Source of the DNA: Nautilus pompilius
Lineage: Eukaryota; Mollusca; Cephalopoda; Nautilida; Nautilidae
Direction of reading: 5' to 3'
NCBI GenBank assembly: GCA_018389105.1
Contig: JACATO010000149.1
Coordinates: forward strand, 1 to 64,000
Length of the DNA: 64,000 bases
Position 1 is the first letter of the stretch; each line of letters begins with the position of its first letter. A program made the translations under genes and the position numbers. Shown here one piece after another: positions 3,001 to 64,000 of the stretch. The notes beneath the pieces were generated by a model. That model was not told where the DNA came from and made no database searches. It saw only the letters and a program-made list of their open reading frames with translations.

Positions 3001-4736
3001 TTTGTTAGACAGTATTCAAAGTTTGGCAAACTACAGTAAATGATGGTATTTCTGTGTCTATGAAAATCTTGTGCCAGACCTCCTTACGGTATTTAAGGGG
3101 CAACTACTCGTCACAAATTCGACCAAGTTCCTTTGACCTCTTACCGTGGTCGATTTGTGGACCTTTTAGTGGTCATATCATTTTGTGTTGTTTGCGGACT
3201 CCATCTTCCGGAAAGATCGCACGCTTCGTTGCCTACTGATGGTAGGGCTTAAGGCCGGCCACCTGTCTGACCGTGGTCACGTGCTCCGTGTCCTTAGGAT
3301 GCTGATTTCCGCGGGACACCAAAAAGCCTGATTGGATCCCATTGCACGTGCAAACGCCGGCCGTCAGTTACCAGGAGCCTCATGAGTTGTCGCCACACCC
3401 ACTTCGCGTCTTGTTTTCTTTTCAATAAAATATCACAGCTGGAATTAACGGAATTACTGGTACCGTATTGTCAGGGTCGGTCTGGCGCTACCATGGCCGC
3501 CATTCCCGCCCGTGTCTGATAAACGGGTTATTTCCTACATTAGCCGATTCTGTGGAAAATGGTCGCATCCTAATTTCTGCACGGCCAGTAGGGGCGCTGC
3601 TGTCGTCAGTGTTTAATTTTTTTTATGAAAGATGAAGGTCCGTAGACTTTAGGATTTGTCGCGGTTGTTACAAACCGACCGACCCTGGGGTCCGCGAAGG
3701 TAGCGTCGGACTGAGCCCTTGTGCAACGAGAGACGAGCAAGAAGAAGATAATGCGGGCGGCTGTCCATCTTGCGTTCATTGTTCTCCTCGGGTGACGAGA
3801 TACAGACAGAGGCGGAATCATTTTCATCGTAGACCCTCAGCAGCGCCGACAGAGTGGATCGGCGTCAGGGATCGGGGTCTCGGTTTTATTGGTGATGATT
3901 TCAGGGACGGTCCAACTGGTAATGCTCCCAGACCCCGACGGCCCCTTAGTACGTGGTTAAGCCCACTGGTGCATGAAAGTCCACCATCTTCCTCAATAAC
4001 CAAAGGTTTTCCACCACCTATGAATAAACAAAATCTACCTTCAGATCGCGACCCTCGCCCCCGCTTGATGCTGCACCCCACCCCTCGTCGTCATAATTCA
4101 TCAGGTCTCGCAATCATGAATTTTCATGTTAGTTTCCCAAATTTCCCAGCTTCGCTCTCCCCCATTAACTAAGGAAACCACAAAGCGGTTTACTCGTCAG
4201 TCAAGGCATTGACGTGACATCAACAGGAAAACTTAGTAGACTTTAATTTGACCCTCCTATAATCGCAATTTGAATATTCTAGATGATGCATAACTTCTGG
4301 CTAAGGTTACAGGGGCAGATTAACACCCCGCTCCGCTCTTCTGTGGCCGGAGTCCATCATACTTCCCATAACACGTGACCGACTCCGTTACCGTTCTGAA
4401 GCCCGGATTTCCGGGTTGACGACATAGATTCAATAATCAAATGGATTTAGGTGAGGCTTAATATGGTTACCCAGGCACCTAGAGGTGTTCGCTTCAGTGG
4501 CACGGAAATGTCCTCGGGCTGAAATGGAGAACGAGTCGGTTCTTAAACGTCCGCTGGTTGTGGAGGGAAGTGGAATCCTGGTTGTCCACACCTGTCGTTC
4601 TTAGGTCAGGTGATGGCAGTTAGGTCAGCGAGCAGAGAGAACATACAACAAACACAGCACAGTCGCACATAACAGCAATTTTCTCACCTGGCCAAAGAAG
4701 TAGCGGACAAATTACAGCGAACAGTGTTATCCACAT
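1..4736 (-). pseudogene. Type A 12-cysteine secreted protein gene, copy A-1, broken and cut by window edge
   Basis: Five exons read on the minus strand: 4736-4688 (signal peptide starting MWITLFAVICPLLLWP), 2827-2654, 2167-2031, 1005-858 and 134 to beyond base 1. All introns are GT-AG and the phases are 1-2-1-2. Each of exons 2-5 encodes three cysteines, the hallmark of this cluster. The start is the only ATG between a TATA box at 4780-4789 and the exon 1 donor. Exon 2 is 174 nt where the other two copies have 175: one T is missing near 2736, which breaks the frame. Exon 5 has an extra base near position 13 (GGTTTACACC against GGTTACACC elsewhere). The GPI-type tail lies outside the window. 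The product would be a secreted, probably membrane-anchored protein of unknown role. The indels could be real decay or assembly errors. Confidence 0.72.
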
Positions 4737-4779
4737 TCCTTCCTCCGACAAAACAAACAATCACGGGTCACGTCGCTTC

Positions 4780-10149: not shown

Positions 10150-13100
10150 ATGTGGAGGCCAACAAGTTCAGGTGTGCTGATCCTCTTGCTCGCGTTATCA
10201 GCAGGTAAGAGAATTTCTATGTCTCCCTTTGGGGCCCAGGAACACGACAGGGGAAGGCCGAGGGTAGACTTTTTTCCTGTTACAAATTCAGTTCGCAGCC
10301 GTGAAAACGTCCAAGCTGCAGCAAACGGGCGCAGGTGTCCGCCGCCGACTGATCGTCACAATCTTTCCAGAACCAGGTGTTTTCAGTGCAAACAAACAGA
10401 ACCGAATACTCCTTCGTAACCCATCGATGCACGTTAAGCAAACCGGGCTACCAAACTATACGATTTTGATGGCGGCGGGAAGGAATATTCATTTCGAAAA
10501 GCCAGGCAGAGCGCAGTAGGAAGGGGCGGATATTTCCTCGACTGGTTCGTTGTCAGACCTGATACCGCACCTAACGGAATAATGCGGGTCGGACAAGCAG
10601 AAATACCGCACCCTCTCCGTCAATGAACGGAGCTTCATGGCTTCTCTTGAAATAGGCAGTAACCCTATTGATAATCCACAGCCGATTATCCAATGTTTTT
10701 TCGCAGATTTTCCATCCGTTCATCGACGTCTCAACGTCCAACTATTCACCTCTTGATCGAAGTCCATTGGTTCCCCTGATCTGTGTTTTGTCTACCTATA
10801 GAATCTCCTCACCTGGTTATATATAGTCCACAATCGCGGGTGACCGGAATATTCTGCCAGAGTCCTGGAGGCTGTTTCTTTACTTCTGCCAAACGTTTAC
10901 TTTTATTTTAAATTTTCTTTGCTCGAAAAATATTGTAGATTTCTCATCTTCTGATTAAAGAAGACGGACGGAAGGATGGACCCACTCAGCAGTAACTCTT
11001 AGAATACCCTGCTCATATCGATCCCTCTGCTTCAGATCCCACATTACAAATTTATAGACTTTCCTGGGAACCGTACAAAAAAGGGCTCACTGATCTGTAC
11101 AACTGGTTTATTTCGGGTCTACCAAACGTACACCAGTTCAACTGGTCACAAGATTTCGATTTTTAAACGACCGATGATAACAGACTAATACAAAAAATCA
11201 ACGATTCACGGGTTTCGTCCTCTGGAAATTTCGATCCGTTTTCTTATCGAACTCGATTACTAAACCATTTATATTTGTTCGTATCAGTTACAAGGATTAG
11301 TGACTCAGCGTCTCGCTCGATTAATTTGCGCTCATCGACTCCTTGTAGCGAGTTCTGTTGATGCGAGAGTCCATGACATTTGAAACGAACTTTTAGAATC
11401 CTTTTTGCCTTTTGAATTGCAAACGCGGACGTAGAAGCGAAGATTAACTCTTGGAGTTGTAGTTAGGTCCAGTGTTGAGCCATTTCTCTGGGTTTTGATA
11501 ACATTATCTTGAGTGGTGAAAATCCACCTTTCGCATTAAAGTTTATTTACTCCAACCCCCGACACATGACTATTACACGATATTTTTATCTAGTTGACAG
11601 TATCTTTTCTGATGACGAAGATTGCGTGAAGAATGCTCTGAAGGAAATTGCAGACTGTGGCGTTGACATTGGCGTGGAGCTGATAAATAGAATTATAAAC
11701 TTGGCAGTAGAAGGAAAACTGAAACATACGATGGACGAAACATGCAAGTAAGTATTATGAACATTGGGCTATAGACACGTGTGCAGTATCGTTACAGCGA
11801 CGGCGGTATTGTAGTTATGTAATCATTAGCTTTTATTGAATCCTTGTTCTGACATTCGAGGTCAAAGGTAAATTCACATCAGTAATGGTATTAACCATGT
11901 TGCCCGGGCAAGTCAGCAAGGTACGGTTGTCTGGGGAGGTTAAAGTCAGGATAAATCTGCACGGGCACGGAAAATCTCCACGAGAACATTACTTTCATAT
12001 CTGCTTCTGCTCAGTGTACAATAAACGGGACTTTTGCGGACAGGGACTCGACCCCGGGCTGTCACTCATTGCATTCCAAATATCTATAAACTAGCGAGCC
12101 GGGTTCTGATCTAACCCGGTCCTCTGGACAGAGGTCACTCGTCTCCTCCCTGTTATATAAACTTTAATATTTCCATTATATCATCTCTAATGGCTTCTCA
12201 TCTCCTGGACAATTGCTGGATGGACTTTACATCGTCAGCAGAGCAGCAGCATCTCAGACCGGATCAGATTAATCTAGCAAGAATTTCATCGTGAGCTTCC
12301 TTGCTATATATCCGCATCATATTTCCTGAATCAGACAGGAAAACTCCAATGTATTTGTATCTTTTCTTATTTGCAGACATGTTACTAAAGCATCCGATTG
12401 TTTGGTTAACTATGCCGACCGGTGCGAGAATTATAAAAAGTTGGTAGAATTGGGTGGTTTCAGTACCAGATACTTTAAATCTGCCAACCGCGGTCTTTGC
12501 AAATCTTCTTCCGGTAAGTAAACTACAAGAGCATTTAGCACGAGATCAGCTTAGAAAGCTGATATAAGGGGGCCGTCTTTTAATTTAGATAAACGCGGAC
12601 TCTGGTTTTCACCAGTTTCTTCTTAATGCTGCGATTGTTAGAAAGAAATTAAATAGACGTTCTCTCACCAAATCTACGAATCCGGCTTCAAGAGAATCGC
12701 AAAGTAGTGAAGTACGAATTTAAGACGACACCGACAGCCACTCAGAGGGGTCCTCACCTCGGCGAATATGCCCTCCACGTTTATCAGTCCTGGTAATCTC
12801 GTGGATGTGCAGGAGTTTAGATTATTTGGTATATTCCAAGTTGCTTGGTGTAAGGCTCCCAGCTGCGTCAATTGCACATTAAAGGGAAATACAAAGTTTA
12901 CCTTTCTGTCAGCGTTTTGAGTTTGGATGTAGAGAAAATCGTATTGAATCCACTTGTATCAATGGATCTCCCAAACTCAGCAGAGTCTGGTCAGCCAAAC
13001 GGTTGATTTCCATGGATGATCAACTAAGAAAAATTTCAAAACGTAACTTAGCGAGGTTTTCTGTAATTTGGATTCTTCAGAAGTGAACCAAAGTGTACAC

Positions 13101-14572
13101 GTGGAGATGACTTACCTCTGGTATTGATTCCTTTAGCATTAGCGAACATTTTCGATATGGACGATCCATAATAGGTAAACACGATTATTTCATTTGTCGG
13201 AGAAGGATGCGCCGACAGGTGTAGTTAGGGAAGCCAGACGGACGAAAGTCTCAATTTTCTCGTGCAGCAATAAACAGTCACTTTCTGGAGGGCCACCGAC
13301 AAGATTTCTTCTACATTTTATACATTTGAATTCGAACAATGATTGTTCAGGGTCAGTGCCTAGCGATAGTTTATCCTTGTTTAATACACAACGGGGAACT
13401 AACCGTAAAGGGGTCTCTCCTTTTATAAAAGCTTCCATAGATATCGCATCATACCTGATCGACCGCCCCCGGTATATAGTCTCTTCTCTTTTCCAGATAT
13501 TGTGAAAGAAACCAGCTGCCTAATAAAGAAACACTACTCGAGTAGGTCTGATGGGGTGTTTCCGAAATTATTCCGTTATCTCTTCACGTTACCTGAAGGG
13601 AGGTATCAGCAAAGTACCTGAACAAGGTTACGATGCCGTGTGCAGGTTAGTAAGGAAAGAGTTAATCGTTTTTGTTTTAGCTGAAAAGGAATCTCGTTGT
13701 CAGTTTGTCAGGTGCAGGGAAAATTCGTCACCCATGGTGTCATTCAACCAGCTGTTTGTTTTCATTAAAAGGTAAACGATCGCTCAGATTACAGGAAATA
13801 AAATCGCCTGTTTGTAGGTTATGATCCAGAAGTTCGGTAAGTTTACTTATGAAAGCTATCAACATTTTTGTTCTGTTTGGAATCGTTGGAGACGTGAAGC
13901 TTTTAAAGGAAACAATGCAACGGTAATCTGAGCGATCGGGGGAGACAGATTTTTATACAAAAGAAGGCAATGATATGCTGATTAGTCCGAGTAAGAAGTC
14001 GTGTAGGGCGGACAAATTACAGGTCGGGCCGAGACTGGTGCCTTATTTGACGCCAAGGGACGGTACTCTTGTGTTCTATTTAGCTGTGGTATGAATACTA
14101 CTTCTGATACTGGAGATAGTTCGGTTTGAGGAGCTGATAGATAAACGGGAGATGTTGTCAAAGTCAATAGATATCCAGTTATTTCGGTCTGATCAGCCAA
14201 CAGACTGCCTATTTTACGTCAACTCCTCATCAGGTTTACTTTTAAAGCTGTAAAGGTACCACACATTTCGTTCAGCTGCTATTTATAAACTTAACATCCT
14301 ATTTCTCTTTTTAAAGTGTAAATAGCTGCACATTTAGTTAACCAATGAAAATGTCTGTTGCAGAATCCTTAACCAGCGTTGATTGTGGGGCGACGGAATT
14401 GGTAGAGTGCGGCAATTTGGGTCAGATCTTCAAAGACTACATTACCTCTTCCATGTCGCAAAGATGCTACAAGATTTCAGGCTACAAGTCACCGACTCGT
14501 GGATCAGCTTCCGCCCAAACCTCAGCTCAGGCCACTCTGTTGGCTATTGCCATTGGTTACCTTCTGTTCTGA
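10150..14572 (+). pseudogene. Type B 12-cysteine GPI-type protein gene, copy B-1, frameshifted
   Basis: Exons are 10150-10204 (signal peptide MWRPTSSGVLILLLALSAG), 11594-11747, 12377-12513, 13497-13645 and 14364-14572, with GT-AG introns and phases 1-2-1-2. Exons 2-5 each encode three cysteines, and exon 3 is 137 nt, exactly as in type A. Exon 4 is 149 nt where every other copy has 148: a base was gained near 13530. Exon 5 lacks two bases just after the acceptor relative to copy B-2. The net frame is broken and meets an early stop. The tail ATLLAIAIGYLLF after a small-residue stretch (GSASAQ) looks like a GPI-anchor signal. An AATAAA is at 14856. It is a paralogue of type A. Function is unknown. 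If the indels are sequence errors the product would be about 234 residues. Confidence 0.74.
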
Positions 14573-19153: not shown

Positions 19154-19194
19154 GAAGCGACGTGACCCGTGATTGTTTGTTGTCGGAGGAAGGA

Positions 19195-22100
19195 ATGTGG
19201 ATAACACTGTTCGCTGTAATTTGTCCGCTACTTCTTTGGCCAGGTGAGAACAATTGCTGTTATGTGCGACTGTGCTGTTGTTTGTTGTATGTTCTCTCTG
19301 CTCGCTGACCTAACTGCCATCACCTGACCTAAGAACGACAGGTGTGGACAACCAGGATTCCACTTCCCTCCACAACCAGCGGACGTTTAAGAACCGACTC
19401 GTTCTCATTTCAGCCCGAGGACATTTCCGTGCCACTGAAGCGAAACCCTCTAGGTGCCTGGGTAACCATATTAAGCCTCACCTAAATCCATTTGATTATT
19501 GAAATCTATGTCGTCAACCCGGAAATCCGGGCTTCAGAACGGTAACGGAGTCGGTCACGTGTTATGGGAAGTATGATGGACTCCGGCCACAGAAGAGCGG
19601 AGCGGGTTGTTAATCTGCCCCTGTAACCTTAGCCAGAAGTTATGCATCATCTAGAATATTCAAATTGCGATTTGTAGGGTCAAATTAAGTCTACTAAGTT
19701 TTCCTGTTGATGTCACGTCAATGCCTTGACTGACGAGTAAACCGCTTTGTGGTTTCCTTAGTTAATGGGGGGAGAGCGAAGCTGGGAAATTTGGAAACTA
19801 ACATGAAAATACATGATTGCGAGACCTGATGAATTATGACGACGACGGGGTTAGGGGTGCAGCATCAAGCTGGGGGCGAGGGTCGCGATCTGAAGGTAGA
19901 TTTTGTTATTTCATGGGTGGTGGAAAACCTTTGGTTATTGAGGAAGATGGTGGACTTTCATGCACCAGTGGGCTTAACCACGTACTAAGGGGCCGTCGGG
20001 GTCTGGAGAGCCATTACCAGTTGGCACCGTGAAATCATCACCAATAAAACCGAGACCCCGATCCCTGACGCCGATCCACTCTGTCGGGCGCTGCTGAGGG
20101 TCTACGATGAAAATGATTCCGCCTCTGCCTGTATCTCGTCACCCGAGGAGAACAGTGAACGCAACAAGATGGACGGCCGCCCGCATCTTCAGCTTTCTAG
20201 CTCGTCTCTCGGTTGCACAAGAGCTCAGTCCGACGCTACCTTCGCGGACCCCAGGGTCGGTCGGTTTGTAACAACCACGACAAATCCTAAACAGTCTACG
20301 GACCTTCATCTTTCATAAAACAAATTAAACACTGACGACAGCAGCGCCCCTACTGGCCGTGCAGAAATTAGGATGCGACCATTTTCCACAGAATCGGCTA
20401 ATGTAGGAAATAACCCGTTTATAAGATCACGGGCGGGAATGGCGGCCATGGTAGCGCCAGACCGACCCTGACAATACGGTACCAGTAATTCCGTTAATTC
20501 CAGCTGTGATATTTTATTGAAAAGAAAACAAGACGCGAAGTGGGTGTGGCGACAACTCATGAGGCTCCTGGTAACTGACGGCCGGCGTTTGCACGTGCAA
20601 TGGGATCCAATCAGGCTTTTTGGTGTCCCGCGGAAATCAGCATCCTAAGGACACGGAGCACGTGACCACGGTCAGACAGGTGGCCGGCCTTAAGCCCTAC
20701 CATCAGTAGGCAACGAAGCGTGCGATCTTTCCGGAAGATGGAGTCCGCAAACAAACAAAATGATATGACCACTAAAAGGTCCACAAATCGACCACGGTAA
20801 GAGGTCAAAGGAACTTGGTCGAATTTGTGACGAGTAGTCGCCCCTTAAATACCGTAAGGAGGTCTGGCACAAGATTTTCACAGACACAGAAATACCATCA
20901 TTTACTGTAGTTTGCCAAACTTTGAATACTGTCTAACAAAAGGTGGCTGAGTGTACGCTGCTTTACCTTAAATTGCCTTCCTAGTGAAACTCAAATTCTT
21001 TATACATTTTGCCTCCTGCCTTCTACGTCTCTAAAGTGGTAAGATGCCATTTCATTAGGTCTGACAACCATTATTTGCTGCTTCTATTGTTTATTTTAAA
21101 ATTAAACAGCTGAGAGGGCAGCTTCCATTGATGCCTGTACTTCGAGTGTGAGTGGAGACGTCATTGAAAAGTGCATGTCCCATATTGACATGGGCACACT
21201 ACTGACGAACGTCAACGATCAGATGACCATCGGAGATATGATTGACCTTCTACAGACCTCTGACATCTTCGACAAAACGTGCAGTTAAGTCTGTCTGAGA
21301 ATCCATTATTAATCTATTGCTTAACAGCTGCCCAGGACCTTCATGTCCAGCGTAAAACCATACAAGCATGAAGCGTACTGATTTTCACCTTCTCTCTCTT
21401 TTCTACGTCTGAATAATGAACGACACAGCGATGAAGATAATCCCGAGAGAGCAGAGAAAATAGAAGACTACGTTGGGAAGAAGTCAGGTACCAATGATAG
21501 GTTCGATTTCTTGTTTAAATGCCAATAGTAGAACCTATTGGTCGACCATCTCGACAGCCCTCCCTGCCTCTCTTCGGATCCCACCCTGACACTCTACATG
21601 GTTACGGCCCCACCAATGATCTCCACATTCCCATGCATAGACCAGGTAATTAGCTCACAGGCAAACAAGTGTAGGACGTTAGAAAATCTACACATGCACG
21701 AGAATAACGACACGACAGAGTTGCTGCTGCTGTTCTGTTTATCACGGTTTTATTTCTATTGTAGGCAATACCGAGCTATAATCGATTGCCAGATAAACCT
21801 CACTGCCAGCTGTCCGTCGATCAGGGAGACGTGGGACTTAATGGGTTTCAATCTGGAGTATTCCAAATCAGCTACGGAGTGGTTCTGCAAATCGAAAGAC
21901 AGTAAGTCAGACATGTGCAATCCCATAATGCTCCCTGACCCCGATGATATGTACTCGAGGGCATTAGCGAGGTAAAACTATATGTAATGGGCAGGCTCAG
22001 GTGAACAAAGGGCTTTATGAAACCCAAAATGGACAGAACGCTTTCTCCAATCATTATGTCAGCGCTCACAAAGACCCGAGGGATCCTTTCAGGGAGCTCC

Positions 22101-24620
22101 TCTCTTTCTTTCTCCCCTTAGTCCCCACCTTATTCCTCAGCCGTTTCCTCCTTTGAGCCCCTTTATTAGCCGGATCACTAGGTACACTTTACCATGTGTG
22201 TGTTTCTCACCATTAATCATTTAAAATGACTGCATCAATCTCAACTAAGATATAATCCAGCGTCTTTTACCTGGAAATCGAAATCCCGACAGCTGACCCA
22301 GGTTAGCCCTTTTCAATTAACTCAAGACTATCGTCACGTGACTTGGAATAGTCCGGAAACATGACACGTTAAATAAACGACAGGTTAGGACCGAACCTCC
22401 AACAAACCACGGATGGCGGGAGTCAGGGTCACTATGGCCACAATAACAGCTGGTTACCTTCCGAAACTTGAGAAAATTGAATGTCCAGTGTAAATAAGTT
22501 AGTGTTTCTGATGGTCCAACCGCGGGAAGCTGCCAGACTTTTAGATTCAGGCCCTGCCGAGGATTGCAGCTGTCTAAAGTAAGAGAGCACAGGATGCAGT
22601 CATCGCTGCGGAGCTGAGTTGGGCAGGCGGCCAGTACCGCCAACCTTGCTGCTGTGACTCTCTCAGGTATTACCCTCTTCTGCTCTAGGGCTATCGTGTT
22701 GTCTTGGAGACTGTGAGGATTGAGGGATACGTTCGGACATTGCACGTACTTAGGGGCGTCGGTCAGTGAGGTGGTCAGACCGAGGCTGGAGGCGAATACA
22801 AATACTATTGAATAGGTGATGTGGGAAACACCCCCGGGATTCCATCCTTTTTCAGGGAGTCGTGTATATGTAGGTCAGGTCGTCCGTCTGAACGCTCACA
22901 GATGTTGGCATCCGGTTTAATTTCCTTTCAGGTATTTACGACGATCTCAGGTGTGTGATGAGGAGACCGGAGCTTGTGAGGAAATGGCAGCTGTGCGTGA
23001 TCGGTTACAGCGACTCTTTTCAAGAACTGCTCTTGAAACAGAGTGGTTTACCTGCCCCTGCTGGCAACGAGTTGTGCTCGTAAGTACGTTCTTTGTCCGT
23101 GAGTGGGCGCTGTCATCGATCCAGGAATAGGGGAACATCCTGAGTTCATGTCAGCTGTGCGTTTATGGCCATTGAGGCCGACAGAAACCGAGTCTGTGCT
23201 TGTACTAAACTCGCTGCTGTCTCCCGTGAGCGCAGGTGGAAATGAGGAGCGATCATGGCGGCCGGTCGGGCATCTGACGTGCAGATCTCTTGTGGTAGGA
23301 TGTCCGAGCGTCTCGGTTTGACCAGGCCGCCATCCCCACATTCTGTAACATCAGTCCGACCGCCTGGCTTCCTTCCTGCAGCTTAGATCTTTTTCCTTTC
23401 TAACGAAGCCGGAGGTGCCGGGCCATATGAGGAGCTGGCTGGAAGGACACCGCTTGTCAGTAGAGACCATGGCACAGACCTCGTACAACTCTGACAGGTA
23501 TTGACCCATTAAGGGCAGGTGACACTTGAAAACGTAAATCTTGGATGCTACAATATGATAATATCTTCAGGGCTGACTAAAAATGTTTGATCTCTTTGTT
23601 TACCTTTACTGTTAGGAATGTGATGACATCTTCCTTCATCATTCACCTGTCGGAAACAATTTGGTATTCGAAAGAGGAAAACTTGGCTCAGATTCGAGTA
23701 GCAACCTTTAGTTGTTAGAATAGTGATGCACCTGAGATTATTTCTGCATATTTATGTACGTCACGATCAATGTAAATATTTACTCGGCAAAATAATTTCA
23801 ACCTTTCAGCGACCTGGCGACCACTGTGACCTGCTTAGCAAAAGAAATGGGGGATGTGGGAAGATCAGCCAGATCTTCAAAGATTTTGCCTTTGGATCGA
23901 TGACCAACAGATGCTACATAATTGGAGGTTACACCTCTCCGTCTGGGATTGAAAGCTCCTCTGCCAGCCTGACATCCGTGTACACTTCTCCGTCTCTGGG
24001 CGACAGCTCTGCTGCCAGTCTAGCGACCATGTACACCAATTCGTCTCGAGGCACCAGGTCGTCTGCCAGTCTGACATCCGAGTACACACTCCCTCTCCGG
24101 GAGACACTTCGCTACCATCTGACAACGTGTATACCACTCCGTCTCGGGCTGACAGCTCTGCTGCCAGTCTGACATCCGACACACCACTCCCTCTCTTGGC
24201 GACACTTCGTCTACCAGTCTGACAACAATGTTACCACTCCGTCTCGGGCTGACGCTTGCTGCCAGACGACTCCGAGTACACCATCCCTCTCTTGGCGACA
24301 CTTCGTCTACCAGTCTGACAACAGTGTATACCACTCCGTCTCGGGCTGACAGATCTGCTGCCAGACTGACATCCGAGTACACCACTCCCTCTCTTGGCGA
24401 CACTTCGACTACCAGTCTGACAACGGTGTATACCACTCCGTCTCGGGCTGACAGCTCTGCTGCCAGACTGACATCCGAGTACACCACTCCCTCTCCTGGT
24501 GACACTTCGTCTATCAGTCTGATAACGGTGTACACCACTCCGTCTCAGGATCACAGCTCGGCTGCCAGTCTGACATTCCTGTACACTACGCTGATGGCAT
24601 TTCTGATTTCTGTATTTTAG
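19195..24620 (+). pseudogene. Type A gene copy A-2 with amplified stalk; donor lost and frameshifted
   Basis: This is the only copy in which the type A exons run directly into an amplified stalk. Exons: 19195-19243 (signal peptide), 21110-21284, 21765-21901, 22932-23079 and 23810-24620. Exons 2-5 each carry three cysteines. The exon 2 donor, GTAAGT in A-1 and A-3, reads TTAAGT here at 21285, so normal splicing should fail. Exon 5 lacks one base near 23849 (ATGGGGGATG against ATGGAGGGATG), and later units shift frame again near 24090 and 24250. The stalk is Ser/Thr/Pro-rich, about 13 units, and ends VYTTLMAFLISVF then stop, a GPI-type tail. If repaired by splicing or polymorphism it would encode a mucin-like stalked ectodomain. 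As read it is probably a pseudogene. Function is unknown. Confidence 0.75.
23931..24588 (+). repeat. TR-3: diverged stalk repeats inside A-2 exon 5, about 13 units
   Basis: Units of about 51 bp encode variants such as TSVYTSPSLGDSSAASL, TTVYTTPSRADSSAARL and TSEYTTPSLGDTSTTSL. From about 24180 on, two alternating unit types form a 34-residue period. The units differ more from each other than those of the other arrays, which suggests an older expansion. None contains RGD. Confidence 0.85.
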
Positions 24621-28420: not shown

Positions 28421-31400
28421 ATGTGGTGGCCAACAAGTTCAGGTGTGCTGATCCTCTTGCTCGCGTTATCAGCAGGTAAGAGAATTTCTATGTCTCCCTT
28501 TGGGGCCCAGGAACACGACAGGGGAAGCGGCCGAGCGTAGACTTTTTTCCTGTTACAAATTCAGTTCGCAGCCGTGAAAACGTCCAAGCTGCAGCAACGG
28601 GCGCAGGTGTCCGCCGCCGACTGATCGTCACAATCTTTCCAGAACCAGGTGTTTTCAGTGCCAAACAAACAGAACCGAATACTCCTTCGTAACCCATCGA
28701 TGCACGTTAGGCAAACCAGGCTACCAAACTATACGATTTTGATGGCGGCGGGAAGGAATATTCATTTCGAAAAGCCAGGCAGAGCGCAGTAGGAAGGGGC
28801 GAATATTTCCTAGACTGGTTCGTTGTCAGACCTGATACCGGAGCTAACGGAATAATGCGGGTGGGACAAGCAGAAATACGGCACCCACTCCGTCAATGAA
28901 CGGAGCTTCATGGCTTCTCTTGAAATAGGAAGTAACCCTATTGATAATCCACAGCCGATTATCCAATGTTTTTTCGCAGATTTTCCATCCGTTCATCGAC
29001 GTCTCATCGTCCAACTATTCACCTCTTGATCGAAGTCCATTGGTTCCCCTGATCTGTGTTTTTGTCTACCTATAGAATCTCCTCACCTGGTTATATATAG
29101 TCCACAATCGCGGGTGACCGGAATATTCTGCCAGAGTCCTGGAGGCTGTTTCTTTACTTCTGCCAAACGTTTACTTTTCATTTTAAATTTTCTTTGCTCG
29201 AAAAATATTGTAGATTTCTCATCTTCTGATTAAAGAAGACGGACGGAAGGATGGACCCACTCAGCAGTTACTCTTAGAATACCCTGCTCATATCGATCGC
29301 TCTGCTTCAGATCCCACATTACAAATTTACAGACTTTCCTGGGAACCGAACAAAAAAGGGCTCACTGATCTGTAGAACTGGTTTATTTCGGGTCTACCAA
29401 ACGTACACCAGTTTAACTGGTCACAAGCAGAGCCGGATTAAGGCCAGGGCTTTAGGGGCTGCCACCCAGGGACCTTACTTCATTTGTGAATTCAGAATCA
29501 AAGTATAAGTATTCTAAATCATCTCTTTAAAAAGAGCTCCATTAATACACTGTGTATATATTTGTAGTTAGCATAATACGGCAGAAATAAACACTGGGCA
29601 GTAGATCTCAAAGTGAGGGTCGCGATAAATGGTAACAGACCACGTGATAATAGGGCTGAGCGGAGGGAGCTGGGCCGTTGGTATGGACTCACGATTTTAA
29701 GGGGGCTATTCCCCTCGTTAGAGCCAAACGGGGAAACCTTTTGTAGAGAATTATACATAGATTTCATGCTCCTTTGAATTGGAAGAATTCAAATTGCCGC
29801 CTTAAATATTTTGGTAAAGGGGAAACAGGCCCTTTCGTTGTTTCTGTTCTCCTCCGTTAACTGACAGGAGCCAGGTACTCGAGAACAGTGTGGCGTCAGA
29901 GAGAAGCGTCTCAGCACAGGAAGTGTATAATTAAAAAGTGAACTTTAAGGTTACGGTATTTTTTTCCTTTTTTAGCTGATAGGGACAGATACTACCAGCC
30001 ATGATCTTGTCTTCTATTGTCAGACATGTTTAAGTCGGGACCGCTGTTACTAAATTGTGTTGTGATCTTTTTCTGTCTTTCACCGGTCCCATCACGTGGC
30101 TGCTGGCCGGTCACGTGATCCTGTTGCTTTCGTTATGGCTGATAAAGGAAACAAAATTGAGTTCCGAACTTTTGAGAGTTGCGGAAAGTCAGACATCATT
30201 AGTCATAAAACGTTGAAAGGAGGAGAATGAACTTATGTCAATTTTATCTGGTGTAAAGTAGGCGAAAGGAATAAGGAAATTATTCTCAACGATCCATCTA
30301 TCAAGACCTCGGTAAGTGTACAAAATAGGGTTACTATAAATGTTTATATTATTTTTAATTTTCTATATTTGGGGGTTAGAATCTACTATACCAGTAGCTA
30401 TTTTGTCATCCCTCTAAATATAACTGATATAGAATTATAGATAAACCGATGCTATGAATTCTATTTTGATATCATGAGAAATATTGTCTTCAAATAGTCA
30501 GCCGCCCCGCAGACGTGTGTCCTGGTTATGGAACAGACCTCTGAGGTAACTCACAGTTGCATCACTGGCCCCAGAAACTTCTTGTAAATCCACCAGCCTT
30601 CGAGAAAGATGGACAGTACAGGCTACCGATAGGGGCCGGTCTTCGTAGCTAATTTAAGAGGACAGTCTTATGACAACGCATCAAAAATTTCAGGATGCTA
30701 TAAAGGGCTTCAAGCGCACATATTCTCATTATCAATCAACTTGCCTATTACTTAATATGGTAGGTATATGTGCTGTGGACAGCTGCACTGGAGCAGTTTC
30801 ATTCTTTGGTCTTATACAAAAACTTTACAATTTTTTTTTTTCTGGTCAGCCCAACAATGGTCAGTAATGCCTCAGTGCCTTAAAGCTGAAAGTGGAAGTG
30901 AATCTACATTGGTAGTTAAGAGCATCAGACAATTGATGGTCTGCGAGGGCCGATGCCACAAAAGCTGTACCATTAAGACGAGGTTATTTTCAAGAAGCTT
31001 TGAAGTTCATCACAGAAGATGTAAATCAGGAGGCTGACACACATTATGAAGCTAACACTATACTCAAGCAGCTATCAACATTGGAAACAGTTCTCTTGGC
31101 AGACTTCTGGGCTGTCATACTGGAGAGGTTCAATCAAGTCAGCAAATCACTTCACTAACATGAAACACTGGAGCGTCAATTAGCAATTAAACTTCTTAAA
31201 TCTCAATGGAATGTTTGATGTTGTAGCGGGATCAGTTTGAAGTGTTTGAAAATAAAGCAAAAGACAACGCAGAAAATATGGAATAATGTGACGATCAAAA
31301 ACGAGAGCATAGGGGAAAATGATGGTAATGCTGAAGATGTTGCTTTGTGAGGAAGACAGAAGTTCAAGGTGGAAACATATCTACTCATCATAGACAAGTT

Positions 31401-34400
31401 ATGCTCAGCTCTTTCTCATCGCATTGAAGCATATAAAAATGTTCATTCATTGTTTGGTTTCCTGGTCGAATTTCCAACAATGAATGGAAGACATTTCAAC
31501 AGCTGCAGCCAAGTTTCAGAAGATTTACTCAGATGACATCGAGCCTGAATTTGTGCCAGAAATTCTTCACTTAAACCTTTGTTGGGCAATTTGATGAAGT
31601 CAGGTACAAGCATGAAACACTGCAAGCTTCTGATATCTACACCCTTGTAGTAAACAATGGATTAACTTCTTCATTCCCTGATGTTGAAATAGCACTACGG
31701 ATTTACTTGTGTTTAATGAAAACTAATGCGAGTGGAGAGAGGAGTTTCTCCAAGATGAAACACCTAAAGAACATACACAGATCGACAATGGCACAAGAAC
31801 GACTAAACAGGCAGGCTCTCATGGCAATTGAAAATCATGTTCTCAACAGCTTACAATTTATTGATGTTTTGGAGAAATTTGTTTCCAAGAAATTATGGAA
31901 AGCAAATGTTTGAATTTTAAATGTGATAGGCCTTGTATTAATAAATTTGATATTTATTTACCTGTTTTTCCTTTTGAACATATCACTGGGGGCCTCACAG
32001 TACCTGTAGCCCAGGAGGCCTACAAATCTTAAACCGGCTCTGGTCACAAGATTTCGATTTTTCAACGACCGATGATAACAGACTAATACAAGAAAATCAA
32101 CGATTCACGGGTTTCGTCTTCTGGAAATTTCGAACCATTTTCTTGTAGAACTCGATTATTTAACCATTTAACTTTGTTCGTATCAGGTACAGGGATTAGT
32201 GACTCAGCGTCTCGCTCGATTAATTTGCGCTCATCGACTCCTTGTAGCAAGTTCTGTTGAAGCGAGAGTCCATGACATTTGAAAAGAGCTTTTAGAATCC
32301 TTTTTGCCTTTTGAATTGCAAACGCGGACGTAGAAGCCAAGATTGACTCTTGGAGTTGTAGTTAGGTCCAGTGTTGAGCCATTTCTCTGGGTTTGGATAA
32401 CATTATCTTGAGTGGTGAAAATCCACCTTTCGCTGTAAAGTTTATTTACTCCAACCCCCGACACATGACTCTTACACGATATTTTTATCTAGTTGACAGT
32501 ATCTTTTCTGATGAAGAAGAATGCGAGAAGAATGCTGAGAAGGAAATGGCAGACTGTGGCGTTTACCCTCGCGAGGAGCTGATGAAGAAAATTATAAAGC
32601 TGGCAGCAAAAGGAGAACTGAAACATACGATGGTCGCAAAATGCAAGTAAGTATTATGAACATTGGGCCATAGACACGTGTGCAGTATCGTTACAGCGAC
32701 GGCGGTATTGTAGTTATGTAATCATTAGCTTTTATTGAATCCTTGTTCTGACATTCGAGGTTAAAGGTAAATTCACATCAGTAAAGGTATTAGCCATGTT
32801 GTCCAATCCACTCAGCAAGGTACGGTTGTCTGGGGAGGTTAAAGTCAGGCGAAATCTGCACATGCACGGCAAATCCACACGAGAACATTACTTTCATCCC
32901 AGCTTCTGCTCAGTGTACAATAAACGGCACCGTTGCGGACAGGGACTCGACCCCGGGCTGTCACTCATTGCATTCCAAATATTTATAAACTAGCGAGCCG
33001 GGTTCTGATCTAACCCGGTCCTCTGGACGGAGGTCACTCGTCTCCTCCCTGTTATATAAACATTAATATTTCCATTATATCTTCTCTAATGGCTTCTCAT
33101 CTCCTGGACAATTGCTGGATGGACTTTACATCGTCACCAGAGCAGCAGCATCTCAGACCGGATCAGATTAAACTACCACGAATATCATCGTTAGCTTCCT
33201 TGCTATATATCCGCCTCATATTTCCTGAATCAGACAGGAAAACTCCAATGTATTTGTATCTTTTCTTATTTGCAGAAATATTGCTAAAGCAACCGATTGC
33301 TGGATTAACTACACCGACCGGTGCGAGAATTATGAAAAGATGGAAGAATTTCTGGGTTTCAGCACCAGATTCTCTAAATCTGCCAACCTCGGTCTTTGCA
33401 AATTTCTTTCGGTAAGTAAACTACAAGAGCATTTAGCACGAGATCAGCTTAGAAAGCTGATATAAGGGGGCCGTCTTTTAAGTTAGATAAACCCGGACTC
33501 TGGTTTTCACCAGTTTCTTCTTAATGCTGCGATTGTTAGAAAGAAATTAAATAGACGTTCTCTCACCAAATCTACGAATCCGGCTTCAAGAGAATCTCAA
33601 AATAGTGAAGTACGAATTTCAGGAAACCGTGTATCACAGCTGACATGATGGGTAGACCACACCGACAGCCACTCAGAGGGGTCCTCACCTCGGCGAATAT
33701 GCCCTCCACGTTTATCAGTCCTGGTAATCTCGTGGATGTGCAGGAGTTTAGATTATTTGGTATATTCCAAGTTGCTTGGTGTAAGGCTCCCAGCTGCGTC
33801 AATTGAACATTAAAGGGAAATACAAAGTTTACCTTTCTGTCAGCGTTTTGAGTTTGGATGTAGAGAAAATCGTATTGAATCCACTTGTATCAATGGATCT
33901 CCCAAACTCAGCAGAGTCTGGTCAGCCAAACGGTTGATTTCCATGGATGATCAACTAAGAAAAATTTCAAAACGTAACTTAGCGAGGTTTTCTGTAATTT
34001 GGATTCTTCAGAAGTGAATCAAAGTGTACACGTGGAGATGACTTACCTCTGGTATGGAATCCTTTAGCATTAGCGAACATCTTCGATATGGACGATCCAT
34101 AATAGATGAACACGATTATTTCATTTGTCGGAGAAGGATGCGCCGACAGGTGTAGTTAGGGAAGCCAGACGGACGGAAGTCTCAATTTTCTCGTGCAGCA
34201 ATAAACAGTCACTTTCTGGAGGGCCACCGACAAGATTTCTTCTACATTTTATACATTTAAATTCGAGCACTGATTGTTCAGGGTCAGTGCCTAGCGATAG
34301 TTTATCCTTGTTTAATACACAACGGGGAACTAGCCATAAAGGGATCTCTCCTTTTATAAAAGCTTCCATAGATATCGCATCATACATGATCGACCGCCCC

Positions 34401-35500
34401 CGGTATATAGTCTCTTCTCTTTTCCAGATATTGTGAAAGAAACCAGCTGCCTAATAAAGGAAACTACTCGAGTAGGTCTGATAGGGTGTTTCCGAAATTA
34501 TTCCGCTAGCTATAGACCTTACCTGAAGCGAGATGTCAGCACATTCCATGAACGAAGTTACGATGCCGTGTGCAGGTTAGTAAGGAAAGAGTTAATCGTC
34601 TTTGTTTTCGCTGAATAGGAATCTCGTTGTCAGTTTGTCAGGTGCAGGGAAAATTCGTCACCCATGGTGTCATTCAACCAGCTGTTTGTTTTCATTAAAA
34701 GGTAAACGATCGCTCAGATTACAGGAAATAAAATCGCCTGTTTGTAGGTTATGATCCAGAAGTTCGGTAAGTTTACTTATGAAAGCTCTCACATCTCGTT
34801 CTGTTTGGAATCGTTGGAGACGTGAAGCTTTTAAAGGAAACAATGCAACGGTAATCTGAGCGATCGGGGGAGACAGATTTTTATACAAAAGAAGGCAATG
34901 ATATGCTGATTAGTACGAGTAAGAAGTAGTGTAGGGCGGACCAATTACAGGTCGGGCCAAGACTGGTTTCTTATTTGACACCAGCGGATGGTACTCTTGT
35001 GTTCTATTTAGCTGTGGTATGAATAGTACTTCTGCTGCTGGAGATAGTTCGGTTTGAGGAGCTGATAGATAAACGGGAGATGCTGTCAGTGTAGATAGAT
35101 ATCCAGTTATTTCGGTCTGATCAGCCAACAGACTGCCTATTTTACGTCAACTCCATCAGGTTTACTTTTAAAGCTGTAAAGGTACCACACATTTCGTTCA
35201 GCTGATATTTATAAACTTAACATCCTGTTTCTCTTTTTAAAGTGTAAATAGCTGCACATTTAGTTAACCAATGAAAATGTCTGTTGCAGAAACCTTTCGA
35301 CCAGCGTTGATTGTATGGCGACGGAATTGGTAGAGTGCGGCAATGTGAGTAAGATCTTCAAAGACTACATAACCTCCTCCATGTCGCAAAGATGCTACAA
35401 CATTTCAGGCTACAAGTCACCGACTCGTGGATCAGCTTCCGGCCAAACGTCAGCTCAGGCCACTCTGTTGGCTATTGCCATTGGTTACCTTCTGTTCTGA
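28421..35500 (+). CDS. Type B 12-cysteine GPI-type protein gene, copy B-2 (one frameshift)
   Basis: Best preserved complete type B gene. Exons: 28421-28475 (signal peptide MWWPTSSGVLILLLALSAG), 32493-32646, 33276-33411, 34428-34575 and 35290-35500; GT-AG introns, phases 1-2-1-2. The 12 cysteines are spaced C-x10-C-x28-C-x8-C-x7-C-x24-C-x11-C-x12-C-x27-C-x8-C-x7-C-x18-C. Exon 5 ends with a KSPTRGSAS stalk and the tail ATLLAIAIGYLLF, so a GPI-anchored cell-surface protein is likely. Exons 4 and 5 match type A lengths exactly (148 and 211 nt). The only lesion is in exon 3: 136 nt instead of 137, a base lost in a T-rich run near 33405, which would shift exon 4 into a stop. A sequencing error there would restore a 234-residue protein. 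Intron 1 carries the hAT element at 29428. Role unknown. Confidence 0.75.
29428..32042 (+). mobile_element. hAT transposon (ZMYM-like) in intron 1 of B-2
   Basis: Element of 2615 bp with terminal inverted repeats CAGAGCCGG...CCGGCTCTG. It is flanked by an 8-bp target duplication GTCACAAG at 29420-29427 and 32043-32050, the size expected for hAT elements. The unit at 10150 has the empty site (single GTCACAAG near 11144). A second copy sits at the identical site at 60152-62769, so one insertion was carried along by the later duplication. Confidence 0.93.
30135..31913 (+). pseudogene. hAT transposase remnant, ZMYM/DUF4371 type
   Basis: Plus-strand fragments in changing frames follow the order of a ZMYM-like hAT transposase. 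From ATG 30135 there is an N-terminal piece. At 30670-30860 a piece contains AVDSCTGAVSFFGLIQKLYN, matching the catalytic-core region with its conserved AV.SC...FF...LY pattern. Around 31380-31580 come middle pieces. At 31650-31913 the C-terminal hAT dimerisation region contains LMKTNASGERSFSKMK and ends in TGA at 31911. Frameshifts and stops make it inactive. Confidence 0.88.
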
Positions 35501-35780: not shown

Positions 35781-36227
35781 GAATTTTTACTAAAAACCAT
35801 CAAATTTTCGTTTCTCTCCGATGTGAGATCAACAGAATGAAACCTGAACAGATGATCGGTCAGACTGGGCCAAAGTCTTCATTTTCTCATCTGATACAAG
35901 CAAAATAATTTAATTCCGATTTCTTTTCAACGTTGGATTAGTACAATTTGGTTTGCACTCTTTAATTCCTTTTCTTAAAATTATTAACCCGCCGTCAGCC
36001 AGGTACCGATGTCTAAACATGGACACAAGTCTGGTAAGATGGCAACCTGCCGCGCTTATCCAATCAGAAAGCGACACACATCCCGGTCCGTGAAGGGTTC
36101 GCCACTTCCTGCTTTGGCAGAAAGACTCTAAATGGATCTCTTACTTTTTCAAATGTCGGATAAAACACGTGACTACCTGGTAATGAAGGAAAAGAAGCCA
36201 TACCACACAGGTGAGTCAAACGGAGTC

Positions 36228-49647: not shown

Positions 49648-52556
49648 CTAAAGAAAACCGATGAGAATTGCGATCAGTGTGGTGTACACGGATGTCAGGC
49701 TGGCAGAGGAGCTTTCAATCCGAGACGGAGAGGTGTAACCTCCAATTATGTAGCATCTGTTGGTCATCGATCCAAAGGCAAAATCTTTGAAGATCTGGCT
49801 GATCTTCCCACATCCCTCCATTTCTTTTGCTAAGCAGGTCACAGTGGTCGCCAGGTCGCTGAAAGGTTGAAATTATTTTGCCGAGTAAATATTTACATTG
49901 ATCGTGACGTACATAAATATGCAGAAATAATCTCAGGTGCATCACTATTCTAACAACTAAAGGTTGCTACTCGAATCTGAGCCAAGTTTTCCTCTTTCGA
50001 ACACCAAATTGTTTCCGACAGGTGAATGATGAGGAAGATGTCATCACATTCCTAACAGTAAAGGTAAACAAAGAGATCAAACATTTTTAGTCAGCCCTGA
50101 AGATATTATCATATTGTAGCATCCAAGATTTACGTTTTCAAGTGTCACCTGCCCTTAATGGTCAATACCTGTCAGTGTTTACGAGGTCTGTGCCATGGTC
50201 TACATGACAGCGGTGTCCTTCCAGCCAGCTCCTCATATGGCCCGGCACCTCCGGCTTCGTTAGAAAGGAAAAAGATCTAAGCTGCAGGAAGGAAGCCAGG
50301 CGGTCGGACTGATGTTACAGAATGTGGGGATGGCGGCCTGGTCAAACCGAGACGCTCGGACATCCTACCACAAGAGGTCTGCACGTCAGATGCCCGACCG
50401 GCCGCCATGATCGCTCCTCATTTCCACCTGCGCTCACGGGAGACAGCAGCGAGTTTAGTACAAGCACAGACTCGGTTTCTGTCGGCCTCAATGGCGATAA
50501 ACGCACAGCTGACATGAACTCAGGATGTTCCCCTATTCCTGGATCGATGACAGCGCCCACTCACGGACAAAGAACGTACTTACGAGCACAACTCGTTGCC
50601 AGCAGGGGCAGGTAAACCACTCTGTTTCAAGAGCAGTTCTTGAAAAGAGTCGCTGTAACCGATCACGCACAGCTGCCATTTCGTCACAAGCTCCGGTCTC
50701 CTCATCACACACCTGAGATCGTCGTAAATACCTGAAAGGAAATTAAACCGGATGCCAACATCTGTGAGCGTTCAGACGGACGACCTGACCTACATATACA
50801 CGACTCCCTGAAAAAGGATGGAATCCCGGGGGTGTTTCCCACATCACCTATTCAATAGTATTTGTATTCGCCACCAGCCTCGGTCTGACCACCTCACTGA
50901 CCGACGCCCCAAAGTACGTACAATGTCCGAACGTATCCCTCAATCCTCACAGCCTCCAAGACATCACGATAGCCCTAGAGCGGAAAAGGATAATACCTGC
51001 GAGAGTCACAGCAGCAAGGCTGGCGGTACTGGCCGCCTGCCCAACTCAGCTCCGCAGCGATGACTACATCCTGGCCTCTCTTACTTTAGACAGCTGCAAT
51101 CCTCGGCAGGGCCTGAATCTAAAACGTCTGGCAGCTTCCCGCGGTTGGACCATCAGATAAACTAATTTATTTACACTGGACATTCAATTTTCTCAAGTTT
51201 CGGAAAAGTAACCAGCTGTTATTGTGGCCATACTGACCCTGACTCCCGCCATCCGTGGTTTGTTGGAGGTTCGGTCCTAACCTGTCGTTTATTTAACGTG
51301 TCATGTTTCCGGACTATTCCAAGTCACGTGACGATAGTCTTGAGTTAATTGAAAAGGGCTAACCTGGGTCAGCTGTCGGGATTTCGATTTCCAGGTAAAA
51401 GACGCTGGATTATATCTTAGTTGAGATTGATGCAGTCATTTTAAATGATTAATGGTGAGAAACACACACATGGTAAAGTGTACCTAGTGATCCGGCTAAT
51501 AAAGGGGCTCAAAGGAGGGAAACGGCTGAGGAATAAGGTGGGGACTAAGGGGAGAAAGAGAGGAGCTCCCTGAAAGGATCCCTCGGGTCTTTGTGAGCGC
51601 TGACATAATGATTGGAGAAAGCGTTCTGTCCATTTTGGGTTTCATAAAGCCCTTTGTTCACCTGAGCCTGCCCATTACATATAGTTTTACCTCGCTAATG
51701 CCCTCGAGTACATATCATCGGGGTCAGGGAGCATTATGGGATTGCACATGTCTGACTTACTGTCTTTCGATTTGCAGAACCACTCCGTAGCTGATTTGGA
51801 ATACTCCAGATTGAAACCCATTAAGTCCCACGTCTCCCTGATCGACGGACAGCTGGCAGTGAGGTTTATCTGGCAATCGATTATAGCTCGGTATTGCCTA
51901 CAATAGAAATAAAACCGTGATAAACAGAACAGCAGCGGCAACTCTGTCGTGTCGTTATTCTCGTGCATGTGGAGATTTTCTAACGTCCTACACTTGTTTA
52001 CCTGTGAGCTAATTACCTGGTCTATGCATGAGAATGTGGAGATCATTGGTGGGGCCGTAACCATGTAGAGTATCAGGGTGGGATCCGAAGAGAGGCAGGG
52101 AGGGCTGTCGAGATGGTCGACCAATAGGTTCTACTATTGGCATTTAAACAAGAAATCGAACCTATCATTGGTGCCTGACTTCTTCCCAACGTAGTCTCCT
52201 ATTTTCTCTGCTCTCTCGGGATTATCTTCATCGCTGTGTCGTTCATTATTCAGACGTAGAAAAGTCAGAGAGAGAAGGTGAAAGTCAGTACGCTTCATGC
52301 TTGTATGGTTTTACGCTGGACATGAAGGTCCTGGGCAGCTGTTAAGCAATAGATTAATAATGCATTCTCAGACAGACTTACCTGCACGTTTTGTCGAAGA
52401 TGTCAGAGGTCTGTAGAAGGTCAATCATATCTCCGATGGTCATCTGATCGTTGACGTTCGTCAGTAGTGTGCCCATGTCAATATGGGACATGCACTTTTC
52501 AATGACGTCTCCACTCACACTCGAAGTACAGGCATCAATGGAAGCTGCCCTCTCAG
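49648..52556 (-). pseudogene. Type A gene copy A-3: intact exons 2-5, promoter and signal exon deleted
   Basis: Minus-strand exons 52556-52382 (175 nt), 51897-51761 (137), 50731-50584 (148) and 49858-49648 (211, with stop) join without any frame break. They give a mature domain with 12 cysteines spaced C-x11-C-x35-C-x8-C-x7-C-x24-C-x11-C-x13-C-x26-C-x8-C-x7-C-x18-C. The stalk is a single unit, YTSPSRIESSSASLTSV (49737-49687), followed by the hydrophobic tail YTTLIAILIGFL, a GPI-type signal. Exon 1 and the TATA box are absent: at about 53622 the sequence jumps from intron 1 to the array leader, removing about 1 kb present in A-1 and A-2. It is probably a 5'-truncated pseudogene, unless an unseen alternative first exon lies elsewhere. 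It is the cleanest record of the ancestral protein in the window. Confidence 0.78.
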
Positions 52557-59104: not shown

Positions 59105-60151
59105 CCCCGCCCATAGGTGGGGTAACTCAAACAGATCGGAAGTATGTGGTGGCCAACAAGTTCAGGCGTGCTGATCCTCTTGCTCGCGTTATCAGCAGGT
59201 AAGAGAATTTCTATTTCTCCCTTTGGGGCCCAGGAACACGACAGGGGAAGCGGCCGAGGGTAGACTTTTTTCCTGTTACAAATTCAGTTCGCAGCCGTGA
59301 AAACGTCCAAGCTGCAGCATACGGGCGCAGGTGTCCGCCGCCGACTGATCGTCACAATCTTTCCAGAACCAGGTGTTTTCAGTGCCAAACAAACAGAACC
59401 GAATACTCCTTCGTAACCCATCGATGCACGTTAGGCAAACCAGGCTACCAAACTATACGATTTTGATGGCGGCGGGAAGGAATATTCATTTCGAAAAGCC
59501 AGGCAGAGGGCAGTAGGAAGGGGCGAATATTTCCTCGACTGGTTCGTTGTCAGACCTGATACCGGAGCTAACGGAATAATGCGGGTGGGACAAGCAGAAA
59601 TAACGCACCCACTCCGTCAATGAACGGAGCTTCATGGCTTCTCTTGAAATAGGAAGTAACCCTATTGATAATCCACAGCCGATTATCCAATGTTTTTTCG
59701 CAGATTTTCCATCCGTTCATCGACGTCTCATCGTCCAACTATTCACCTCTTGATCGAAGTCCATTGGTTCCCCTGATCTGTGTTTTTGTCTACCTATAGA
59801 ATCTCCTCACCTGGTTATATATAGTCCACAATCGCGGGTGACCGGAATATTCTGCCAGAGTCCTGGAGGCTGTTTCTTTACTTCTGCCAAACGTTTACTT
59901 TTTATTTTAAATTTTCTTTGCTCGAAAAATATTGTAGATTTCTCATCTTCTGATTAAAGAAGACGGACGGAAGGATGGACCCACTCAGCAGTTACTCTTA
60001 GAATACCCTGCTCATATCGATCGCTCTGCTTCAGATCCCACATTACAAATTTACAGACTTTCCTGGGAACCGAACAAAAAAGGGCTCACTGATCTGTAGA
60101 ACTGGTTTATTTCGGGTCTACCAAAAGTACACCAGTTTAACTGGTCACAAG

Positions 60152-62769: not shown

Positions 62770-64000
62770 GTCACAAGATTTCGATTTTTCAACGACCGAT
62801 GATAACAGACTAATACAAAAAATCAACGATTCACGGGTTTCGTCTTCTGGAAATTTCGAACCATTTTCTTGTAGAACTCGATTATTTAACCATTTATATT
62901 TGTTCGTATCAGGTACAGGGATTAGTGACTCAGCGTCTCGCTCGATTAATTTGCGCTCATCGACTCCTTGTAGCAAGTTCTGTTGAAGCGAGAGTCCATG
63001 ACATTTGAAACGAGCTTTTAGAATCCTTTTTGCCTTTTGAATTGCAAACGCGGACGTAGAAGCCAAGATTGACTCTTGGAGTTGTAGTTAGGTCCAGTGT
63101 TGAGCCATTTCTCTGGGTTGGGATAACATTATCTTGAGTGGTGAAAATCCACCTTTCGCTGGCAAATGTATATTTACTCCAACCCCCGACACATGACACT
63201 TACACGATATTTTTATCTAGTTGACAGTACCTCTTCTGATGACGAAGATTGCGAGAAGAATGCTGAGACGGTAATTGCAGACTGTGGCGTTGACATTGGC
63301 GTGGAGCTGATAAATAGAACTATAAAGCTGGCAGTAGAAGGAAAACTGAAACATACGATGGTCGCAAATGCAAGTAAGTATTATGAACATTGGGCCATAG
63401 ACACGTGTGCAGTATCGTTACAGCGACGGCGGTATTGTAGTTATGTAATCATTAACTTTTATTGAATCCTTGTTCTGACATTCGAGGTCAAAGGTAAATT
63501 CACATCAGTAAAGGTATTAGCCATGTTGTACAATCCACTCAGCAAGGTACGGTTGGCTGGGGAGGTTAAAGTCAGGAGAAATCTGCACGGGACGGAAAAT
63601 CTCCACGAGAACATTACTTTCATATCTGTTTCAGCTCAGTGTACAATAAACGGGACTTTTGCGGACAGGGACTCGACCCCGGGCTGTCACTCATTGCATT
63701 CCAAATATTTATAAACTAGCGAGCCGGGTTCTGATCTAACCCGGTCCTCTGGACGGAGGTCACTCGTCTCCTCCCTGTTATATAAACATTAATATTTCCA
63801 TTATATCTTCTCTAATGGCTTCTCATCTCCCGGACAATTGCTGGATGGTCTTTACATCGTCAGCAGAGCAGCAGCATCTCAGACCGGATCAGATTAAACT
63901 ACCACTAATATCATCGTTAGCTTCCTTGCTATATATCCGCATCATATTTCCTGAATCAGACAGGAAAACTCCAATGTATTTGTATCTTTTCTTATTTGCA

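Follow-up and report, generated by a model that had tools for sequence, protein, structure and literature searches.

DUF1397 (PF07165), the family of the insect 27 kDa haemolymph glycoprotein, and DUF19 (PF01579, T20D4.11-like), a secreted domain with many cysteines, were the described domains at hand for comparison with the gene family treated here. A study of centipede venom (PMC5869384) and one of the mosquito peritrophic matrix (PMC5865745) list DUF1397 proteins, and a third paper annotates an oyster protein as DUF19 (PMC10058639). The present family lies in a 64 000-nucleotide stretch of Nautilus pompilius DNA (C146:1-64000, hereafter the window). It comprises two types of genes, A and B, in a duplicated cluster and two diverged members, C and D, elsewhere in the same genome (727.6 Mb searched, 2558 contigs). 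We regard it as evenly poised whether A and B encode glycosylphosphatidylinositol (GPI)-anchored ectodomains of which A is conserved and B diversifies, perhaps for recognition.

DUF1397 was the best Pfam match of type A (E 0.0019, 18.0 bits, in two stretches) and was also matched by a B copy (E 0.032) and by the second half of B-2, one of the window copies (E 0.053). At E up to 10, a range in which the HMMER filters remove most matches above approximately 0.1, DUF1397 was found in three of five members and CPG4 (PF15481, chondroitin proteoglycan 4) in two of five. All DUF1397 matches scored 13-18 bits and remained below the curated cut-off of 25.7, and there was no match to either half of A scanned alone, nor to C or D. 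The matches are collinear on the profile, at positions 29-86 for the first halves and 128-188 for the second half of B-2, and the two modules together may therefore form one DUF1397-like domain. None of ten shuffles with fixed cysteines matched DUF1397 or CPG4. Recurrence beyond what the cysteine pattern or composition would give suggests a distant relation and not membership; DUF1397 is probably a distant relative of the family, not its class. The nautilus proteins differ from it by their GPI-type end and repeat stalk, and they come from a mollusc and not from an arthropod. The likeness to CPG4 consists of weak matches of D and B near exons 4 and 5, the best of which (E 0.016, 16.1 bits) is far under the cut-off of 32.7.

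DUF19, which the preliminary description had put forward for comparison, was absent from all Pfam scans of family members at E up to 10, subject to the same HMMER filters, and DUF19 identity was rejected. PF01579 and PF07165 had no matches when the genome was scanned, but the controls were silent too and these scans are uninformative. A sequence search of solved structures returned no credible relative, viral contigs scanned with a five-row alignment of the family showed no match, and nothing relevant on diversifying tandem arrays of GPI-anchored proteins in molluscs turned up in a search of the literature.

Twelve cysteines in two halves

A full gene starts with a signal exon; each of the four exons that follow contributes three cysteines, and exon 5 encodes the tail in addition. 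Cysteine spacing in type A is 11-35-8-7-24, then 11, then 13-26-8-7-18. The corresponding spacing is 10-33-8-7-24, 11 and 12-27-8-7-18 in a B copy with open exons 2-5 that lies outside the window, and 10-28-8-7-24 in the first half of B-1. In essence, the six-cysteine spacings described earlier hold for these copies but not for B-2 as a spliced product: its exon 3 has 136 nt compared with 137 nt in B-1 and ends in phase 0, so that the spliced frame stops soon after this exon. The intron phases 1-2-1-2, likewise proposed before, were borne out by the splice sites of type A, and the exon lengths of the open B copy outside the window fit the same phases. In D the same phases were read at the last three introns, and in C at these introns and at the acceptor of exon 2; no exon 1 was identified in either.

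The two diverged members, C (C610) and D (C1685), were each seen once and show 23-30% identity to A and B (23-32% between types overall). When A, B, C and D are aligned in five rows, none of the 12 cysteines varies, at identities to A of 22-34%; judged by this alignment, the pattern is not due to chance. In an alternative alignment of A-D the first two cysteines of C fall out of line. One gap of C is also a residue short (six instead of seven), and the frame of its exon 4 is broken. Genome-wide, at least 12 A-type and at least 16 B-type exon-3 places were found on several contigs, two of the 16 B-type places with a stop. Some of the A and B places are perhaps alternative haplotypes. The duplicated cluster noted earlier is thereby supported, and by its matches the family is real and extends beyond the window. 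Searches with C and D as query revealed no further clear type in the same genome. A weak match of the D search on C836 (E 1.1) was dismissed, as it lacks the cysteine pattern; weak matches at E 0.96-4.9 on C1513, C120, C351, C588, C2314, C2011, C933, C334 and C661 were not inspected.

Hydropathy only was used to read the two ends of the proteins. The start is hydrophobic and signal-like in A and B, and a GPI-type end was found in A and B as well as in C and D. Across the four types, the last 14 residues have a mean hydropathy of 1.56-3.36 (1.89 in B-2) and no cytoplasmic tail follows. A signal peptide and a GPI tail, both claimed in the preliminary description, would fit these ends. A-3, the model copy of that description, is without exon 1, and a signal peptide therefore cannot have been read from this copy. 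From these features we infer GPI anchoring; the sequences support a family of cysteine-rich cell-surface proteins in a duplicated cluster.

In type A, exon 5 continues from the last cysteine into units of 17 amino acids, which by eye are Ser/Thr-rich. Counted from its start, the open frame of exon 5 measures 69 aa in A-3, which has no added units, 120 aa in a copy on C2284, 273 aa in a copy at 82 kb on C146 and 377 aa in a copy on C1208. The first three of these frames finish in a hydrophobic tail.

The preliminary description further held that one six-cysteine module had duplicated internally. BLASTP gave no alignment of one half of A with the other. With hhalign, the halves aligned in register over 37-38 columns, restricted to the C-x8-C-x7-C core, with a score of 21.3 (E 0.0034, probability 9%) for five A/B rows and of 19.0 (E 0.0098, probability 4%) for six A-D rows; adding C and D thus left the signal no stronger. 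Free shuffles never reached these scores (0/200 for both sets). Cysteine-fixed shuffles did so in 3/200 (A and B) and 6/200 (A-D) cases, which indicates that much of the half-half signal is the cysteine pattern and that the remainder is borderline. AlphaFold2 was applied to fragments of exons 3 and 5 from the window. It predicted helices at 2-15, 17-25 and 30-43 for exon 3 (pLDDT 82) and at 2-15 and 19-27 for exon 5 (pLDDT 55, low confidence), the first two helices of both exons having the same register to C-x7-C. Intron phases also agree between the halves. Internal duplication is likely but unproven, with modest support from the sequences of the two halves.

Divergence of exons and introns among copies

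For the B genes, 11 copies were assembled from the window contig and five other contigs, leaving aside the partial copies on C2529 (from 577) and C1145 (from 43018) and the copies on C1208, C1531, C412 and C1857. The A set comprised seven copies, without A-1, which is cut, and without those on C1208, C1531, C1686 and C412. Among the B copies of the window, exons 2-4 of B-1 and B-2 differ at 15.2% of positions (60/395) and their introns at 3.7% (87/2363). The corresponding values are 8.5% and 2.5% for B-1 and B-3, and 14.3% and 2.7% for B-2 and B-3; counts for all three pairs were rebuilt from rounded values, and exons 3-5 of B-3 lie outside the window. Exon divergence in these three copies is thus 3.4-5.3 times intron divergence. 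Over all 11 copies, mean divergence was 0.154, 0.098, 0.100 and 0.042 for exons 2, 3, 4 and 5, compared with 0.040 for introns. Variable sites made up 92/278 of codon positions 1 and 2 and 34/139 of third positions in exons 2-4, and 255/2209 of intron positions. The ratio of non-synonymous to synonymous divergence (pN/pS) in exons 2-5 was 1.68, 0.73, 1.30 and 1.08, counted without frame-broken or truncated exons (11, 10, 7 and 5 of the 11 copies used, respectively). In the seven A copies, the diversity of exons 2-4 was 0.006, 0 and 0.010 compared with 0.016 in introns, and that of exon 5 was about equal to the latter (0.015).

Exons were also compared with intron windows of the same length. 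Exon 2 exceeded every such window when all 11 B copies were taken together (0/1806 reached it). Within a subgroup of seven copies, exons 3 and 4 exceeded every window (0/1852 and 0/1810). Judged against the neighbouring introns, the coding parts of B vary beyond adjacent non-coding DNA, as is the case in some recognition proteins.

Several observations weigh against surface proteins of type B that diversify under selection. Intron windows reached exon 2 of the seven-copy subgroup in 99/1798 cases, and over all 11 copies they reached exon 3 in 130/1851 and exon 4 in 218/1812 cases, because intron 2 differs between the subgroups; in the remaining four-copy subgroup no exon exceeded all windows. 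The pN/pS of exon 3 is below 1. Synonymous divergence is raised as well (0.095-0.107 in exons 2-4 compared with 0.040 in introns), which is not explained by amino-acid selection alone. Nine of the 11 B copies are broken, among them B-1, B-2 and B-3, when exon 1 of B-2 is placed before each of them, and decay or mis-assembly may therefore affect much of the array. Damage is seen in several A copies, too. The A copy at 82 kb on C146 is without the first exon-5 cysteine, and that on C1208 has a broken exon 3 and a long frame that ends out of frame with the anchor.

These frame breaks could be true decay or long-read error in repeats. An array made up mostly of pseudogenes or leftover long-read indels, in which few loci make protein, comes close to an even chance without reaching it. 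It would account for the small frame-breaking indels of the nine B copies and for the damage in A-2, A-3 and further A copies. Polishing of repeats is difficult in long-read assemblies. The published Nautilus pompilius assembly was made with PacBio reads (PMC8257504). Such an array is at odds with two of the 11 B copies, in which exons 2-5 are open and encode 12 cysteines and the tail, and with the A copy on C2284, where five exons are present and exons 2-5 as matched, splice sites unchecked, contain no stop. Moreover, exons of pseudogenes are expected to diverge about as much as introns and not more, and A exons 2-4 are steadier than introns. We give similar weight, again somewhat under one half, to the idea that the exon divergence of B is a mosaic, arising from introns homogenised by conversion or from older exon blocks swapped in, with no continuing selection. 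The raised synonymous sites fit such a mosaic, as does the four-copy subgroup with its distinct exon 2 and intron 2. In the seven-copy subgroup, however, divergence falls at the exon 3 donor and, coming from the left edge of exon 4, rises only inside this exon; to the right of exon 4 it is 0 for 20 bases and then 0.04-0.06. In addition, pN exceeds pS in exons 2 and 4. Taking pN/pS together with the raised synonymous sites, both selection and sequence exchange are plausible causes of the divergence of B.

The structure of the domain itself can be read differently. A single divergent DUF1397-like domain, here GPI-anchored and spanning the whole 12-cysteine unit with no internal duplication, is possible, though we rate it a little lower than either decay or a mosaic. 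The rank of DUF1397 as best Pfam match of A, its collinear recurrence in three of five members and the failure of cysteine-fixed shuffles to match speak for it, whereas the scores below the cut-off and the silence of the isolated A halves, C and D speak against it. The two readings are not exclusive, as a DUF1397 domain might itself have arisen by duplication. It is improbable that the proteins are structural mucus or shell glycoproteins in which a small cysteine-rich head carries a mucin-like stalk. Such a role would suit the stalk of variable repeat length, Ser/Thr-rich by eye, and in the abstract of the Nautilus genome paper the sentence on biomineralization calls repetitive low-complexity domains essential (PMC8257504). 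All four types carry a membrane-anchor-like tail, however, and diversifying B exons are not predicted by a structural role.

Gene copies and repeats in the window

Three A and three B copies are located in the window in the order A-1 (-), B-1 (+), A-2 (+), B-2 (+), A-3 (-) and B-3 (+), the last of which continues past the window end with exons 3-5 on the same contig. Big blocks are repeated within the window at offsets of, for example, 18.3, 20.9 and 30.7 kb, and inverted repeats occur too. Coordinates are compiled in the table.

Table. Positions of type A and type B gene copies and of the exon 5 repeat array in the window
Feature	Position	Strand	Description
B-2 exon 1	28421..28475	+	signal-peptide-like start MWWPTSSGVLILLLALSA, phase 1; read from sequence, donor GTAAG
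B-2 exon 2	32493..32646	+	C-x10-C-x28-C, phase 2 end; splice sites, tblastn
B-2 exon 3	33276..33411	+	C-x7-C-x24-C; 1 base shorter than in B-1, spliced frame broken
B-2 exon 4	34428..34575	+	C-x12-C-x27-C
B-2 exon 5	35290..35500	+	C-x7-C-x18-C, GPI-type tail with end GYLLF*
B-1	10150..14572	+	exons ~10150-10204, 11594-11747, 12377-12513, 13497-13645, 14364-14572
B-3	59144..64000	+	exon 1 59144-59198; exon 2 ~63221-63368, one base short
A-1	14..4738	-	exon 1 ~4690-4738, exon 3 2032-2166, exon 4 860-1006
A-2	19195..24611	+	exons 19195-19243, 21110-21284, 21765-21901, 22932-23079, 23810 onward
A-3	49648..52556	-	exons 2-5: 52382-52556, 51761-51897, 50584-50731, 49648-49858
51-nt (17-aa) repeat array, A-2 exon 5	23930..24586	+	frame-broken here; open in some other A copies

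The frame of B-1 is broken by length differences in exon 4 and at the start of exon 5. In A-1, exon 2 is only partly readable (2656-2745) and exon 5 is truncated close to where the contig begins. In A-2, the donor of exon 2 is altered, and exon 5 contains a small indel ahead of the 51-nt repeats. Exons 2-5 of A-3 are open and end in a GPI-type tail; its exon 1 is absent from the assembly. A stretch of 991 bp of A-2 (~19037 to 20027), which contains exon 1, is missing at A-3, while exon 1 is present at A-1 and A-2.

Intron 1 of B-2 contains an insertion (~29428-32092), apparently common to B-3 and not found in B-1, and within this insertion a hAT dimerisation region was detected (within 31575-31910, E 2e-10). 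At ~36220-36260 a tRNA box-B-like motif (GGATTCGAACC) was seen by eye only and perhaps belongs to a tRNA-derived SINE. Minisatellites of 51 nt, and others of 59 nt with a CT run, lie outside the genes at 5026-6302, 18636-18906, 37119-41104 and 53757-54647. Their sequence is related to the tail encoded by type A exon 5; some lie next to an oppositely oriented A gene, and several finish in a stretch that resembles the tail and contains an in-frame stop. These arrays have the look of repeats that escaped from exon 5.

Elsewhere in the genome, 61 COX1-like matches were recorded; most of them are fragments with stops, which suggests abundant mitochondrial insertions. The best one (L029, C112:262789-263529) reads well with the invertebrate mitochondrial code and is adjoined directly upstream, by eye, by ND2-like sequence. 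Haemocyanin was found at C557:780470-791999 and C1362:511129-522124, each of which matches the beta-sandwich domain of molluscan haemocyanin seven times; these are either two genes or two haplotypes of one. With these 14 matches, and no match to Chitin_bind_4 in a scan that is weak because its control was silent too, an arthropod origin was set aside and a mollusc is well supported. Seven functional units in haemocyanin point to Nautilus or Octopus.

A possible role in recognition

The A and B genes would give rise to secreted, GPI-anchored ectodomains of ~190 residues, encoded in an amplified and partly inverted cluster with C and D as relatives. Each domain would be disulphide-rich and mostly helical, with twelve cysteines in two similar halves cut by introns of the same phase, and in some A copies it would sit on a Ser/Thr-rich stalk of 17-aa repeats whose number depends on the copy. 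Type A would be kept constant; in type B, exons 2-4 would diversify, and the cysteine frame, exon 5 and the anchor would change less. The GPI anchor would carry the disulphide-locked helical head to the outer membrane leaflet, where the B domain probably binds a changing cell-surface partner such as a microbe, a gamete or a self marker. The cysteine pattern, the exon structure, the cluster, the raised exon divergence of B and the stalk repeats can be seen in the DNA; disulphides, the fold of the whole domain and a role in recognition are features that we infer from the predicted proteins.

A stricter form of this proposal, which we consider unlikely, takes the B genes as a hypervariable surface recognition array, whose ectodomain exons would have been diversified by selection together with exon-limited exchange. 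Introns, anchor and the partner gene A would then have stayed constant, with the number of stalk repeats in A varying.

The family adds a defined 12-cysteine domain for which the scans made here found no Pfam model at its cut-off. Variable exons next to steadier introns and a constant anchor would point to a binding face pressed to change, and they name the exons to examine. Confirmation in intact alleles would make the cluster a candidate for a locus of immune, gamete or self recognition in a shelled cephalopod.

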